From Rhodocyclaceae bacterium (GTDB lineage: Bacteria > Pseudomonadota > Gammaproteobacteria > Burkholderiales > Rhodocyclaceae), in assembly GCA_019455325.1 (NCBI GenBank), contig JACFMQ010000001.1, forward strand, positions 259,071 to 323,070: 64,000 bases of DNA, read 5' to 3'. The translations under genes were made by a program, and so were the position numbers. A model generated the notes under the pieces. That model did not search any database. It was not told where the DNA came from and saw nothing but the letters and a program-made list of their open reading frames with translations. How positions within the stretch are numbered: the stretch's first letter is position 1; each line of letters opens with the position of its first letter. Positions 27,623 to 32,953 of this stretch are shown here, piece by piece.

Positions 27623-28399
27623 ATGAACAAGTACGGCACCGAGACGGTTCTCGACGTCCGCCACTGGAACGACACGCTGTTCAGCTTCCGCACCACGCGC
27701 GACCCTGGCCTGCGCTTCGACAACGGCCAGTTCGTGATGATCGGGCTGCAAATCGACGGCAAGCCGCTGACGCGCGCCTACAGCATCGCCAGCCCCAACC
27801 ACGAGGAGCACCTGGAGTTCTTCAGCATCAAGGTGCCGAACGGCCCGCTCACCTCGCGCCTGCAGCACCTGAAGAGCGGCGACCCGATCGTCGTCAGCAG
27901 GAAGCCGACCGGCACGCTGGTGCTGCGCGACCTGCATCCGGGCAAGCGCCTGTGGCTGTTCGGCACCGGCACCGGGCTCGCGCCCTTCCTGTCGCTGATC
28001 CAGGACCCGGAAACCTACGAGCGCTTCGAGAAGGTGGTGCTGGTGCACGGCGTGCGCCAGACCAGCGAACTGGCCTACGCCGATTTCATCGGACGCACGC
28101 TGCCCAACCATGAGCTCCTCGGCGAGCTGGTGCGCGACAAGCTGATCTACTACCCGACGGTGACGCGCGAACCGTTCCGCAACCGCGGCCGCGTCACCGA
28201 CCTAATCGAGTCGGGCAAGCTCTTCGCCGACGTCGGCCTGCCGCCGCTCGACCCGGCCGAGGACCGCGCGATGATCTGCGGCAGCCCGGCGCTGAACAAG
28301 GACATGTGCGAACTGCTCGACGCGCGCGGCTTCAAGGTGTCGCCGTACATCGGCGCGCAGGGCGACTACGTGATCGAGCGCGCCTTCGTCGAGAAGTGA
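27623..28399 (+). CDS. fpr: Ferredoxin/flavodoxin--NADP+ reductase
   Basis: A 258-residue flavoprotein. The FAD-binding barrel (about 1-100) shows the RAYSIASPN motif that holds the flavin and the FFSIKVPNGPLTSRLQHLK strand pair. The NADP domain (about 105-258) has LFGTGTGLAPFLSLI, VLVHGVRQTSELAYADF, MICGSPALNKDMCELLD and the C-terminal VIERAFVEK typical of bacterial subclass I Fpr. It exchanges electrons between NADPH and ferredoxin or flavodoxin and supports oxidative-stress defence and iron release. A GAGAAGGA ribosome-binding site precedes the ATG. It is divergent from mazEF and convergent with the small gene that follows. Confidence 0.95.
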   Translation: MNKYGTETVLDVRHWNDTLFSFRTTRDPGLRFDNGQFVMIGLQIDGKPLTRAYSIASPNHEEHLEFFSIKVPNGPLTSRLQHLKSGDPIVVSRKPTGTLVLRDLHPGKRLWLFGTGTGLAPFLSLIQDPETYERFEKVVLVHGVRQTSELAYADFIGRTLPNHELLGELVRDKLIYYPTVTREPFRNRGRVTDLIESGKLFADVGLPPLDPAEDRAMICGSPALNKDMCELLDARGFKVSPYIGAQGDYVIERAFVEK

Positions 28400-28593
28400 T
28401 CCTCCCCGACCGGTTCGGCGCGCACGAGCCGGCCGACGCGCGCCGGGTTGCAGCCCGGCGCCGTCCGCGTCAGCCGCGGACGAAAATTCTCCGTCGCTCC
28501 CTCCACGGCCCACGGCACCGGCGCCGCCTCGACGGCGATCAGGCCCGGCGCGACCAGGGCGAGCAGCTTTCCGCGCGTGCTGGCGATGTCCAT
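28366..28593 (-). CDS. Possible small gene (or RNA) behind a GlrR-type sigma-54 promoter
   Basis: An open frame of 75 codons starts at the ATG at 28591-28593 with an excellent AGGAG site 8 bases upstream (28602-28606). It runs into the 3' end of fpr on the other strand (34-base overlap). The product starts MDIASTRGKLLALVAPGLIA and is not recognised. The first ~35 codons nearly all end in G or C, like real genes here. About 50 bases upstream of the ATG lies the predicted start of a sigma-54 promoter with IHF and GlrR-type sites. Two GC-rich stem-loops lie within it, at 28440-28461 (8-bp arms) and 28463-28481 (7-bp arms). It may therefore encode a small protein, or the transcript may act as an RNA like the GlrR-controlled GlmY of enteric bacteria. 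Neither is proven. Confidence 0.4.
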   Translation of the reverse strand: MDIASTRGKLLALVAPGLIAVEAAPVPWAVEGATENFRPRLTRTAPGCNPARVGRLVRAEPVGEDHFSTKARSIT

Positions 28594-28653
28594 CCGTTTT
28601 TCTCCTGATTCGTTGATCGGACGCCCCGCGCCGCCGCGTGGCGAAGCGCTCAT

Positions 28654-28669
28654 AGCCACATTCGTGCCA
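28654..28669 (-). promoter_or_regulatory. Putative sigma-54 promoter facing the small gene
   Basis: On the minus strand TGGCACG-AATG-TGGCT matches the sigma-54 consensus TGGCACG-N4-TTGCW with one mismatch and correct GG/GC spacing. The predicted transcription start is near 28643, about 50 bases before the ATG at 28593. Confidence 0.6.
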
Positions 28670-28688
28670 GGCGGAAAATCACGAAAGG

Positions 28689-28701
28689 AATCAGCAGGTT
28701 G
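28689..28701. promoter_or_regulatory. IHF-binding site candidate
   Basis: AATCAGCAGGTTG fits the IHF consensus WATCARNNNNTTR at every defined position. It lies between the GlrR-like site and the sigma-54 promoter, where IHF bends DNA so that the activator can reach the polymerase. Confidence 0.55.
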
Positions 28702-28743
28702 GACGCAGGCCGCGGCAGCGCGGGCAGCACCGCCGCGCGTACC

Positions 28744-28761
28744 TGTCGCCGGCCGGCGACA
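28744..28761. promoter_or_regulatory. GlrR/QseF-type binding site TGTC-N10-GACA (downstream of glrR)
   Basis: An 18-nt perfect palindrome with TGTC and GACA separated by exactly 10 bases, the pattern recognised by GlrR (QseF) at the glmY and glmZ promoters of enteric bacteria. It lies 75 bases upstream of the sigma-54-type promoter on the minus strand. Confidence 0.65.
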
Positions 28762-28802
28762 ATATGCCAGCCGTCAGCCGCAAGTCCTTGTTTTAAGGGA
28801 AA

Positions 28803-30202
<1,400 letters not shown>

Positions 30203-30206
<4 letters not shown>

Positions 30207-30694
30207 TGGCCGCCTCCGCCGCCGGCCTTCGGCTGCGGCCGCGCCGGCAGGCTGCGCTCGATCGCCGTCAGTGCGTCGATCTTCTCCTGCAGTTCGTCGC
30301 CCCGCCGCTGCGCCTCGCGCAACTGCTGTTCGAGGCGCAGGCGCTCGTTGTATTGCTCGTGCAGCAGGCGCGCCAGCGAGGCGAGCCTGGCCGCGTCCGG
30401 GTGCGTGCTCTTCATCACGCTCTCCAGCAAGTTCGATGCCCGCGCCAGCTCCGGCGGCCGCGCCTGGCCGAGCTGGATCGCCTGCTGCAGCGCCGGGCAG
30501 GGATCGCCGGCCGCCCGGCGGCTGCGCGCGCTCGTCTCGGCCCGCGCCGGCGGCGGGCAGCGCAGGGGGAGCAGCGCCTCGTCGGCCACCGGCGGCAACG
30601 GTTCGGATGGCGGCGGCGCAGGCGGCACGGCGCAGGCGACGAGCACCAGACAGCAGGCGGCGGCCAGCGCGCGCCGCAAGGGATCAGTTCGCAT
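30203..30694 (-). CDS. qseG: QseG-like lipoprotein
   Basis: A 163-residue lipoprotein. The N-terminal signal ends in the lipobox LVAC (Cys about 21), followed by a Pro-rich stretch and a helical domain (about 65-150) with SNLLESVMKSTHPDAARLASLARLLHEQ and a Leu/Gln/Arg/Glu-rich coiled coil. A short Gly-rich tail ends the protein. It lies between the kinase and regulator genes, overlapping both by a few bases, exactly as qseG lies between glrK and glrR in enteric bacteria, where the outer-membrane lipoprotein binds the kinase and stimulates it. Sequence similarity is loose; the symbol rests on position and architecture. Confidence 0.75.
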
Positions 30695-32084
30695 CGGGCA
30701 ACTCCATCCTGAAATGCGCGCCTTGCGGCGACGGTACGAGAAAGACGCGGCCGCCCTGGGCGGCCACCAGCTCGCGCACGATCGACAGGCCGATGCCGCT
30801 GCCCGGCGTTGCCGCCGGCGGCCGCCGCGCGCCCTGCACGAAGGGTTCGAAGATGTGTTCGGCGTCCTCGGCGGCGACGCCGGGGCCTTCGTCCACGCAG
30901 TCGATCGTCAGCATGCCGCCAGCGACCGCCGCCGCCAGCCGGATGCGGCCGCCCTGCGGGCTGTAGGCGATGGCGTTGGCGAGCAGGTTGTCGAGGGCGA
31001 CGCGCAGCTTGTCCGGATCGAGCGTCGCCTGCCGCGCCTCGGCCTCGACCTCGGCGCGCAGCCCGCGCCCCTGCAGTTGCAGGCGCTGCGCGTCGACGCA
31101 GGACTGCAGCAGTTCGTGCAGCGACACGCGCCGGCGCTGCAGGCGCGCCGCGGCGAAGACCGTGGCGTGGTAGTCGAGCAGCGCCTCGATCTGCCGCTGC
31201 AGCGCGCGCACGTTGTGTTCGAGGATGCCGGCGACCTCGCGCTGGTCGGCGGCGAGCGGCCCGGCGACCTCGTCGCGGAGCAGCGCCACGCCCTCGCGCA
31301 GCGCGGCCAGCGGCGTCTTCAGCTCGTGCGAGACGTGGCGCAGCACGCGCACGCGGTCCGCTTCCAGTTCGGCCAGCCGCTGGCGCAGCCAGTCAAGGCG
31401 GTGACCGAGGCGCTGCAGGTCGTCCGGCCCGCGGATGGCAATCGGCGCGTCGAAGCGGCCGCTGCCGAGCTGCTCGATCGCCGCCTCCAGCCGCGTCACC
31501 GGCCGCACCAGCCACCAGCCGATGCCGCCGCCGATGGCCAGCGCCGCGACGATGGCCGTCAGCACCTGCGTCAGCAGGTCGAGCCGGTTCTCTTCCAGCG
31601 ACAGCAGCAGTTCGCCGTTGTGGCGGTCGATCCAGCGGCGGCCGGCCTCGGCGAGCAGTGCGTTTTCCGCGCCCAGGCGGGCGAGCGCGGCGAGCGCCGC
31701 CGGCCCGCGGCCGTCGGCCAGCGCCGCCGCCGCCTCGCCGGCCGCCTCGTCCCAGACCGCGGCCGAAGCGGCGATCTCGTCGACGCCGACCGCGCGCAGG
31801 CGCGCCAGCGCCGGCGCCGCCTCGTCGCGGACGGCGGCGAAGCGCTCGCGCAGCGCCGCGTCCTTGAGCACGAGGAACTGGCGGGCGCTGCGTTCGAGGT
31901 CGACGCTGCGCTCGGCGAGGCTCTGGACGTCGGCCGTGGTCTGCACCGCCAGCGCCGCGCCGGCGCGGCTGCGCGCGGCGAAATCCTCGAGCACGAAGAG
32001 GCCGCGCAGCGCCGCCGCGCCGAGCAGCAGCGCGACGAGAAGAAAGCCCAGCAGCAGGCTGAGGCGGAACGAGAGACGGGGCAT
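30684..32084 (-). CDS. glrK: Sensor histidine kinase GlrK (QseE)
   Basis: A 466-residue membrane kinase. It has one membrane helix at about 8-30 (LLLGFLLVALLLGAAALRGLF), a periplasmic four-helix sensor region (about 35-170) and a second helix at about 172-195. A HAMP domain follows (about 195-245), then HisKA with phosphoacceptor His253 in HVSHELKTPLAAL, and HATPase motifs (LDNLLANAIAYSPQGG, DEGPGV, GSGIGLSIVRELV). It is the first gene of the operon glrK–qseG–glrR and presumably phosphorylates GlrR in response to an envelope signal. The start at 32082-32084 fits the conserved N-terminus; the longer frame upstream is not supported. Confidence 0.93.
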   Translation of the reverse strand: MPRLSFRLSLLLGFLLVALLLGAAALRGLFVLEDFAARSRAGAALAVQTTADVQSLAERSVDLERSARQFLVLKDAALRERFAAVRDEAAPALARLRAVGVDEIAASAAVWDEAAGEAAAALADGRGPAALAALARLGAENALLAEAGRRWIDRHNGELLLSLEENRLDLLTQVLTAIVAALAIGGGIGWWLVRPVTRLEAAIEQLGSGRFDAPIAIRGPDDLQRLGHRLDWLRQRLAELEADRVRVLRHVSHELKTPLAALREGVALLRDEVAGPLAADQREVAGILEHNVRALQRQIEALLDYHATVFAAARLQRRRVSLHELLQSCVDAQRLQLQGRGLRAEVEAEARQATLDPDKLRVALDNLLANAIAYSPQGGRIRLAAAVAGGMLTIDCVDEGPGVAAEDAEHIFEPFVQGARRPPAATPGSGIGLSIVRELVAAQGGRVFLVPSPQGAHFRMELPDAN

Positions 32085-32143: not shown

Positions 32144-32161
32144 TGTCGGGAAACGGCGACA
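32144..32161. promoter_or_regulatory. GlrR/QseF-type binding site TGTC-N10-GACA (upstream of glrK)
   Basis: TGTC and GACA are separated by exactly 10 bases, and the arms extend to CTGTCG/CGACAG (32143-32162). The site lies in the glrK–bactofilin gap, about 145 bases upstream of a sigma-54-type promoter on the plus strand. It also lies at the expected start point of the glrK promoter, so it could serve both activation and autoregulation. Confidence 0.65.
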
Positions 32162-32305: not shown

Positions 32306-32321
32306 TGGCACGGACCTTGAT
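32306..32321 (+). promoter_or_regulatory. Putative sigma-54 promoter of the bactofilin gene
   Basis: TGGCACG-GACC-TTGAT matches TGGCACG-N4-TTGCW with one mismatch in the -12 element and correct spacing. The predicted start is near 32332, leaving a 28-base leader with an AGGAG ribosome-binding site before the ATG at 32360. Confidence 0.6.
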
Positions 32322-32359: not shown

Positions 32360-32953
32360 ATGTTCACCAAGCCGAGCAATCCCTTTGCCCGCGACAGCAG
32401 CATGGGCGCCGCCCGCGACGCGCTCGCACCGGCCTCCCGGCCGACCGGCACGCCGGTCGCGCCGGCGGCCGCCAATCCGTCGCCACCGGCCGCGGCGCCG
32501 GCCAACGCCGACAAGGACAAGGCGCCGCCCGCGACCGCCAAGCCGGCCGCCGACGCCGGCAGCGCCACCGGCAGCCGTCTGATCGTCGGCCCCGACGTCA
32601 AGCTGAAGAGCGCCGAGATTCTCGACTGCGACACGCTGGTCGTCGAAGGCCGCGTCGAGGCGACGATGGACAGCCGCGTCATCCGCATCGCCGAGGAAGG
32701 CGTCTATTCCGGCAAGGTGAGCATCGACGTCGCCGAGATCCACGGCCAGTTCGAGGGCGAGCTGACCGTCCGCCAGCAGTTGATGATCCACGCCACCGGC
32801 CGCGTCAGCGGCAAGATCCGCTACGGCAAGATGCTGATCGAGGAAGGTGGCCGCATCTCCGGCGAGGTCCGCTCGCTCGCCGAGGAAGAAGCCGACGCCG
32901 CGCGCCCGCGCGGCGATCTCCTGGCCAGCGTCAAGGCGGCGGCCAACGGCTGA
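32360..32953 (+). CDS. Bactofilin (polymer-forming cytoskeletal protein)
   Basis: A 197-residue bactofilin. The N-terminal ~70 residues are a low-complexity Ala/Pro/Thr-rich segment that is likely disordered. The central beta-helix (about 72-175) shows the repeating hydrophobic pattern of the family: GSRLIVGPDVKLKSAEI, LVVEGRVEATMDSRVIRI, GVYSGKVSIDVAEIHGQFEG, RQQLMIHATGRVSGKIRYG, LIEEGGRISGEV. Bactofilins polymerise without nucleotide into filaments under the inner membrane and organise cell shape, appendages or peptidoglycan enzymes. It is monocistronic, divergent from glrK, with a sigma-54-type promoter and a GlrR-like site upstream, suggesting envelope-stress control. Confidence 0.92.
   Translation: MFTKPSNPFARDSSMGAARDALAPASRPTGTPVAPAAANPSPPAAAPANADKDKAPPATAKPAADAGSATGSRLIVGPDVKLKSAEILDCDTLVVEGRVEATMDSRVIRIAEEGVYSGKVSIDVAEIHGQFEGELTVRQQLMIHATGRVSGKIRYGKMLIEEGGRISGEVRSLAEEEADAARPRGDLLASVKAAANG

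Follow-up and report, generated by a model that had tools for sequence, protein, structure and literature searches.

The response regulator GlrR (QseF) is known mainly through its control of GlmY and rpoE in enteric bacteria, where GlmY acts as a decoy for RapZ and raises GlmS. According to the accessible part of one report (PMC6075780), glmY and rpoE have sigma-54 promoters at which QseF, helped by IHF, acts as activator, and the glmY promoter carries three sites of the form TGTN12ACA, with IHF assistance and sigma-54 control. The accessible part of another (PMC12691602) reports qseEGF clusters in Gamma- and Betaproteobacteria and in Acidithiobacillia. In a literature search whose scope mostly excluded subscription papers, we found no description of GlrR targets in betaproteobacteria, and none that places genes for bactofilin, BON or glycine-zipper proteins under GlrR. 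The window analysed here, a 64-kb stretch of a Rhodocyclaceae genome, contains a glr operon that is probably (at roughly 0.8) flanked by two GlrR-dependent sigma-54 promoters, the 3' one giving the mRNA of a 75-aa protein and the one on the glrK side serving a bactofilin gene.

The operon is transcribed leftwards and has the order glrK-qseG-glrR. The glrR (qseF) gene (28803..30206, minus strand) encodes an NtrC-type response regulator of 467 aa, identified by NCBIfam and by comparison with E. coli GlrR; its top NCBIfam match is the GlrR model NF011695 (605 bits, short of the cut-off of 763), over 444 aligned positions it shares 57% identity with GlrR of E. coli K-12, and both have the helix-turn-helix stretch RNRTEFY. 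A Propionivibrio MAG contains a 75% match to it. The sensor histidine kinase gene glrK (qseE; 30684..32084, minus strand) has HisKA, HATPase_c and HAMP domains. Between them, in the qseG position, lies a 163-aa open reading frame (30203..30694, minus strand) with a lipobox-like LVAC near its start, recognised by eye; it has no match in Pfam or NCBIfam, and its similarity to E. coli QseG is not significant (E 3.6). A ferredoxin-NADP reductase-like gene (27623..28399, plus strand; Pfam/NCBIfam) converges on the small gene described below, and a bactofilin gene (32360..32953, plus strand; PF04519 by Pfam) diverges from glrK.

The stretch 3' of glrR contains all of the elements expected of a GlrR (QseF)-dependent sigma-54 promoter, namely GlrR sites, a -24/-12 promoter downstream of them and an IHF-like site in between. 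The proximal GlrR site, TGTCGCCGGCCGGCGACA, is a TGTC-N10-GACA palindrome located by pattern scan at 28744..28761, in a position conserved in relatives, and a distal site with one mismatch, TGTCGCCGTTGGGCGACG, lies 66 bp from it within the 3' end of glrR (28810..28827, minus strand). The putative sigma-54 promoter, TGGCACGAATGTGGCT, occupies 28654..28669 on the minus strand, with a predicted transcription start near 28643; the pattern match itself, TGGCACGAATGTGGC, spans 28655-28669, and adding base 28654 gives TGGCACG-N4-TGGCT. It retains the GG and GC, and the -12 element TTGC reads TGGC in the genus of the window. The IHF-like site, AATCAGCAGGTTG (28689..28701, plus strand), sits between the proximal GlrR site and the sigma-54 promoter. 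The first-pass annotation had reported this palindrome and sigma-54 element, and both are present where it placed them; its perfect fit to the IHF consensus holds for the pattern WATCARNNNNTTR, with which the stretch is compatible, and fails for the stricter pattern WATCAANNNNTTR, which has no match within the 64-kb window. It overlooked the site at 28810-28827 and also a putative GlrR/sigma-54 promoter that diverges from glrK. We infer GlrR binding, IHF binding, sigma-54 dependence and the start point from the sequence.

None of these elements is significant singly, and each is near chance in this genome. The window has three occurrences of the palindrome pattern where 0.70 are expected, and the genome has 45 against 28 for the backwards-read pattern; the sigma-54 pattern occurs once in the window against 0.24 expected. 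The ordered combination of palindrome and sigma-54 site at 50-80 nt spacing is found once in the 4.46-Mb genome, and it is the conservation of this ordered pair in relatives that shows it not to be a product of chance.

At a threshold of 1e-100, 68 of the 121 genomes searched contain a GlrR match, with 72 match rows in total, of which 8 weaker ones were left out. The 64 loci used comprise the window and 63 loci of relatives, one of which was excluded from the counts, having no stop codon before the contig end, so that n=63. The search covered the 450 nt that follow the glrR stop codon, on the strand of glrR, and a pair was scored where a palindrome with no more than one mismatch had, 20-150 nt downstream, a sigma-54 site with invariant GG and GC and no more than one mismatch elsewhere. 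By these criteria the pair is present at 33 of the 63 loci, the window included, compared with none of 63 on the opposite strand, none of 63 with reversed patterns, 2 of 189 chunks of glrR coding sequence, 1 of 236 chunks further downstream, and 1 of 1260 mononucleotide shuffles. It is missing from the other 30, several of which keep one partner only (for example two palindromes in L160, and the promoter in L170). The first-pass annotation had proposed that glrR has a GlrR target next to it with an IHF site and a sigma-54 promoter, and had named the absence of these elements from related genomes with conserved glrR as a refutation; the 33 loci bear the proposal out, and relatives do have the elements, though nearly half of the loci lack the pair.

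The finer architecture is conserved as well. At 22 of the 33 loci the first palindrome is preceded, at 63-68 bp, by another; second sites at other spacings number three. An IHF-like site with at most one mismatch separates the proximal site from the promoter at 25 of the 33 and is perfect at nine, where reversed spacers give 6 and 1 and shuffles 3.4 and 0.2 respectively. Applied to the glr region of E. coli K-12 as a positive control, the scan picked up the glmY promoter, whose two sites are 63 bp apart, and nothing else. Judged by sequence and position, a real and conserved predicted GlrR/sigma-54 promoter follows glrR.

A stricter pattern matched 21 of the 121 relatives with one control match, and 35 of 399 genomes across the order with no match in the control table. 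Among the 42 loci of both strict searches, 17 have a glrR of at least 60% identity, nine have glrK and/or the bactofilin gene beside the site, three have a GlrR-like protein of ~40% identity and 13 have none of these. At L122, L128 and L261, NtrC-type regulators ~40% identical to GlrR have a palindrome and sigma-54 promoter directly downstream, and the open reading frames behind these promoters resemble multihaem cytochromes (CxxCH motifs, by eye). At L259, L260 and L262, strict pairs in a locus without glrR precede similar small secreted-looking proteins.

The other end of the operon has a counterpart. A GlrR site found by pattern scan (32144..32161) separates glrK from the bactofilin gene transcribed away from it, and is followed by a sigma-54-like promoter, TGGCACGGACCTTGAT (32306..32321, plus strand), with TTGA instead of TTGC, as this promoter reads in the genus of the window. 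With the sigma-54 pattern relaxed to TTGN, a palindrome and sigma-54 pair is present upstream of the bactofilin gene at 14 of the 18 loci having that gene, and at none on the opposite strand or with reversed patterns; in any orientation away from glrK the pair occurs at 19 of the 63 loci, some preceding other genes. As predicted from its sequence and conservation, this is a GlrR/sigma-54 promoter divergent from glrK that reads into the bactofilin gene. Of the other perfect palindromes in the genome, 43 in all, not one has a sigma-54 site at a distance of 20-170 nt, so that the two operon-flanking promoters are the only ones found under these criteria.

Behind the promoter 3' of glrR, an ATG at 28593, preceded by AGGAG at 28606-28602, opens the 75-aa small protein gene (28366..28593, minus strand), which ends at 28366, in agreement with the frame and ribosome binding site of the first-pass annotation. 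Strong homologues occur in five of the seven genomes of the genus and nowhere else among the 121, and weak matches in six non-genus genomes (E 3.7e-4 to 0.0072). The frame, start, Shine-Dalgarno sequence and stop are retained in five genomes, with the ATG and its Shine-Dalgarno sequence at +52 to +54 in four; four of the proteins are 74-77 aa long, and the fifth, that of L170, has 90 aa and a remodelled N-terminus. In L169, of the same genus, neither promoter nor small gene is present 3' of glrR and the bactofilin promoter is retained.

The openness of the frame alone proves nothing, given that a second frame is also stop-free in four of the five genomes. In pairwise comparison dN/dS is 0.18-0.65 and below 1 in all ten pairs, indels are in-frame, and variable columns fall 20, 18 and 36 by codon position, a third-position excess (p 0.0045) that persists when L170 is added (24, 21 and 38, p 0.012). 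These data favour the small protein over the small RNA, the two products that the first-pass annotation had entertained; its proposed comparison of dN/dS with covariation gives, from the five genomes available, coding-like substitutions and also a conserved 3' hairpin. A five-way alignment has 37 invariant residues, the last of which overlap the reductase gene. The last ~11 codons (28366-28399) are antisense to the last codons of that convergent gene, and because of this overlap their conservation is uninformative on the protein. On these comparisons the small gene is a predicted ~75-aa orphan, restricted to the genus and under purifying selection.

The small protein has no match in Pfam, NCBIfam or PHROGs, a profile comparison with the BON set gives an hhalign probability of 0, and its structure model is uninformative (pLDDT 50.6). 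The envelope role that we suggest for it rests on analogy, because strong matches are confined to the genus, no family is matched and the model is uninformative. The analogy is with the genes behind the promoter in relatives. The first open reading frame and its start codon were picked by rule at the 33 loci (that of L194, perhaps with others, is probably miscalled), and 29 of the 33 were compared with Pfam, L194 and the genus homologues L166-L168 being left out. Six are BON proteins (one with EF-hands), nine have a glycine zipper (two under the curated cut-off), and there is one each of EF-hand, bactofilin, MdoG and glucosyltransferase; together, BON, glycine-zipper, EF-hand, bactofilin or glucan-synthesis proteins account for 19 of the 29, and the other ten, including that of the window, have no or no convincing Pfam family. 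At L178, L185 and L137 (the last by eye) a GlrR-type promoter precedes MdoG- or MdoH-like glucan synthesis genes. As far as sequence comparison goes, the predicted promoter 3' of glrR stays in relatives and the gene behind it changes, often encoding a secreted or envelope protein.

Three other readings of this locus need to be weighed. Co-occurrence of short motifs by chance, to which the near-chance frequency of every single element lends itself, is hardly credible against the excess of pairs over shuffles and the fixed tandem spacing. It is very unlikely that the transcript is a GlmY-like small RNA with the 75-codon frame incidental or secondary, even though E. coli GlmY is driven by a promoter of the same architecture and there is structure in the alignments. 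Both of the GC stem-loops that the first-pass annotation had seen are present, one read from the sequence at 28462-28482 and one at 28440..28461 in the 3' part of the small gene, where the conserved hairpin is more stable than column shuffles (alifold z -4.89, four genomes); the whole region gives z -4.34 in four genomes, against -0.02 to -2.94 for glrR control windows, and -7.4 in a gappy five-genome alignment with 60 shuffles (controls -1.2 to -3.8), the four-way figures being smaller. L170 has a different stem in the same place. The fold of the whole transcript of the window is nonetheless ordinary relative to dinucleotide shuffles (z +0.17), the 5' half (alifold z -1.56) is inside the control range, and alifold pairs are broken 62 times against 15 two-sided changes. 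The hairpin lies just past the convergent reductase stop (41-62 nt), and L169, without the small gene, folds a hairpin there too; it is probably a terminator or 3'-end hairpin of the reductase gene. An Rfam scan of the window gave no matches, the GlmY covariance model RF00128 matched neither the window nor the rest of its genome, and the place immediately upstream of glrK, where a glmY gene would lie, holds the divergent bactofilin promoter instead. RF00128 matched E. coli alone among 14 control genomes and one of 61 relatives at the bare cut-off, away from glrR; this lone match (L200, genome G030) is exactly at the gathering score, in a locus without a good GlrR/sigma-54 pair. The coding-like substitutions of the small frame and the protein genes at this place in relatives also speak against an RNA. 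The GlmY-like RNA was rejected on Rfam, RF00128, the single-sequence fold and the controlled alignment folds; the hairpin argues in part against a purely coding reading and is retained as a point for this rival.

We also consider it unlikely that the promoter is real and the small frame the decayed remnant of a former envelope gene, such as one for a BON protein, leaving the promoter idle in the genus. The small protein is genus-restricted and short and does not resemble the proteins encoded in its place in relatives; the entire unit is lost from L169, and the N-terminus is altered in L170. Set against this are the frame and its signals, held in five genomes, dN/dS values below 1 throughout, and the 37 residues invariant five ways, the last of them in the reductase overlap.

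In the reading that we prefer, with a GlrR-dependent promoter at each end of the operon, phosphorylated GlrR would occupy 28810-28827 and 28744-28761; with the DNA bent by IHF at 28689-28701, it would bring the sigma-54 polymerase at 28654-28669 into the open state, yielding an mRNA that begins near 28643 and encodes the 75-aa protein. The second promoter, of the same kind and opposite direction, would drive the bactofilin gene from upstream of glrK. Since the promoter is kept as the gene behind it changes, often to one for a secreted or envelope protein, GlrKGR of these betaproteobacteria may directly control genes for envelope proteins on either side of its own operon, in the place where enterics have the small RNA GlmY. 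Points against this reading are the 30 of 63 loci without the pair, the departures from TTGC in both promoters of the window's genus, and the ten of 29 frames behind the promoter that lack a convincing family. Going further, with somewhat less than even odds, the operon may in betaproteobacteria be framed by its own sigma-54 promoters, with bactofilin on the kinase side and on the regulator side a slot that swaps unrelated envelope proteins between lineages. The 75-aa protein would be its occupant here, new and specific to the genus, with a part in the envelope or in feedback on the GlrK-QseG sensor; the GlmY promoter of enterics would be an RNA version of the same idea.

The conserved promoters suggest that outside enterics the GlrR system directly controls envelope proteins, a bactofilin of the cytoskeleton and glucan synthesis, with no small RNA in between. 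It thereby becomes possible to test whether GlrKGR has a general part in maintaining the envelope; the regulation also singles out a group of envelope proteins that have yet to be studied, and the locus offers a case of a fixed promoter with a replaced gene.

Compared with known systems, the promoter resembles that of enterobacterial glmY in its tandem TGTC-N10-GACA sites, IHF-like site, TGGCAC promoter and position beside the glr operon, but the latter lies 5' of glrK and gives a small RNA, whereas that of the window lies 3' of glrR and reads into a protein gene. The QseF-dependent sigma-54 promoter of E. coli rpoE likewise serves a protein gene of envelope homeostasis (PMC6075780, accessible part), although it is not beside glrR and its product is a sigma factor rather than an envelope or orphan protein. 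The betaproteobacterial qseEGF clusters of PMC12691602 share the gene order of the window; the accessible part of that source deals with QseG, QseE and glmY as a target and describes no betaproteobacterial target promoters flanking the cluster. With a genus-only small protein here, and often envelope genes behind the same switch in relatives, the switch behind glrR looks like the protein-gene counterpart of the enteric GlmY switch and not like a GlmY-like RNA.
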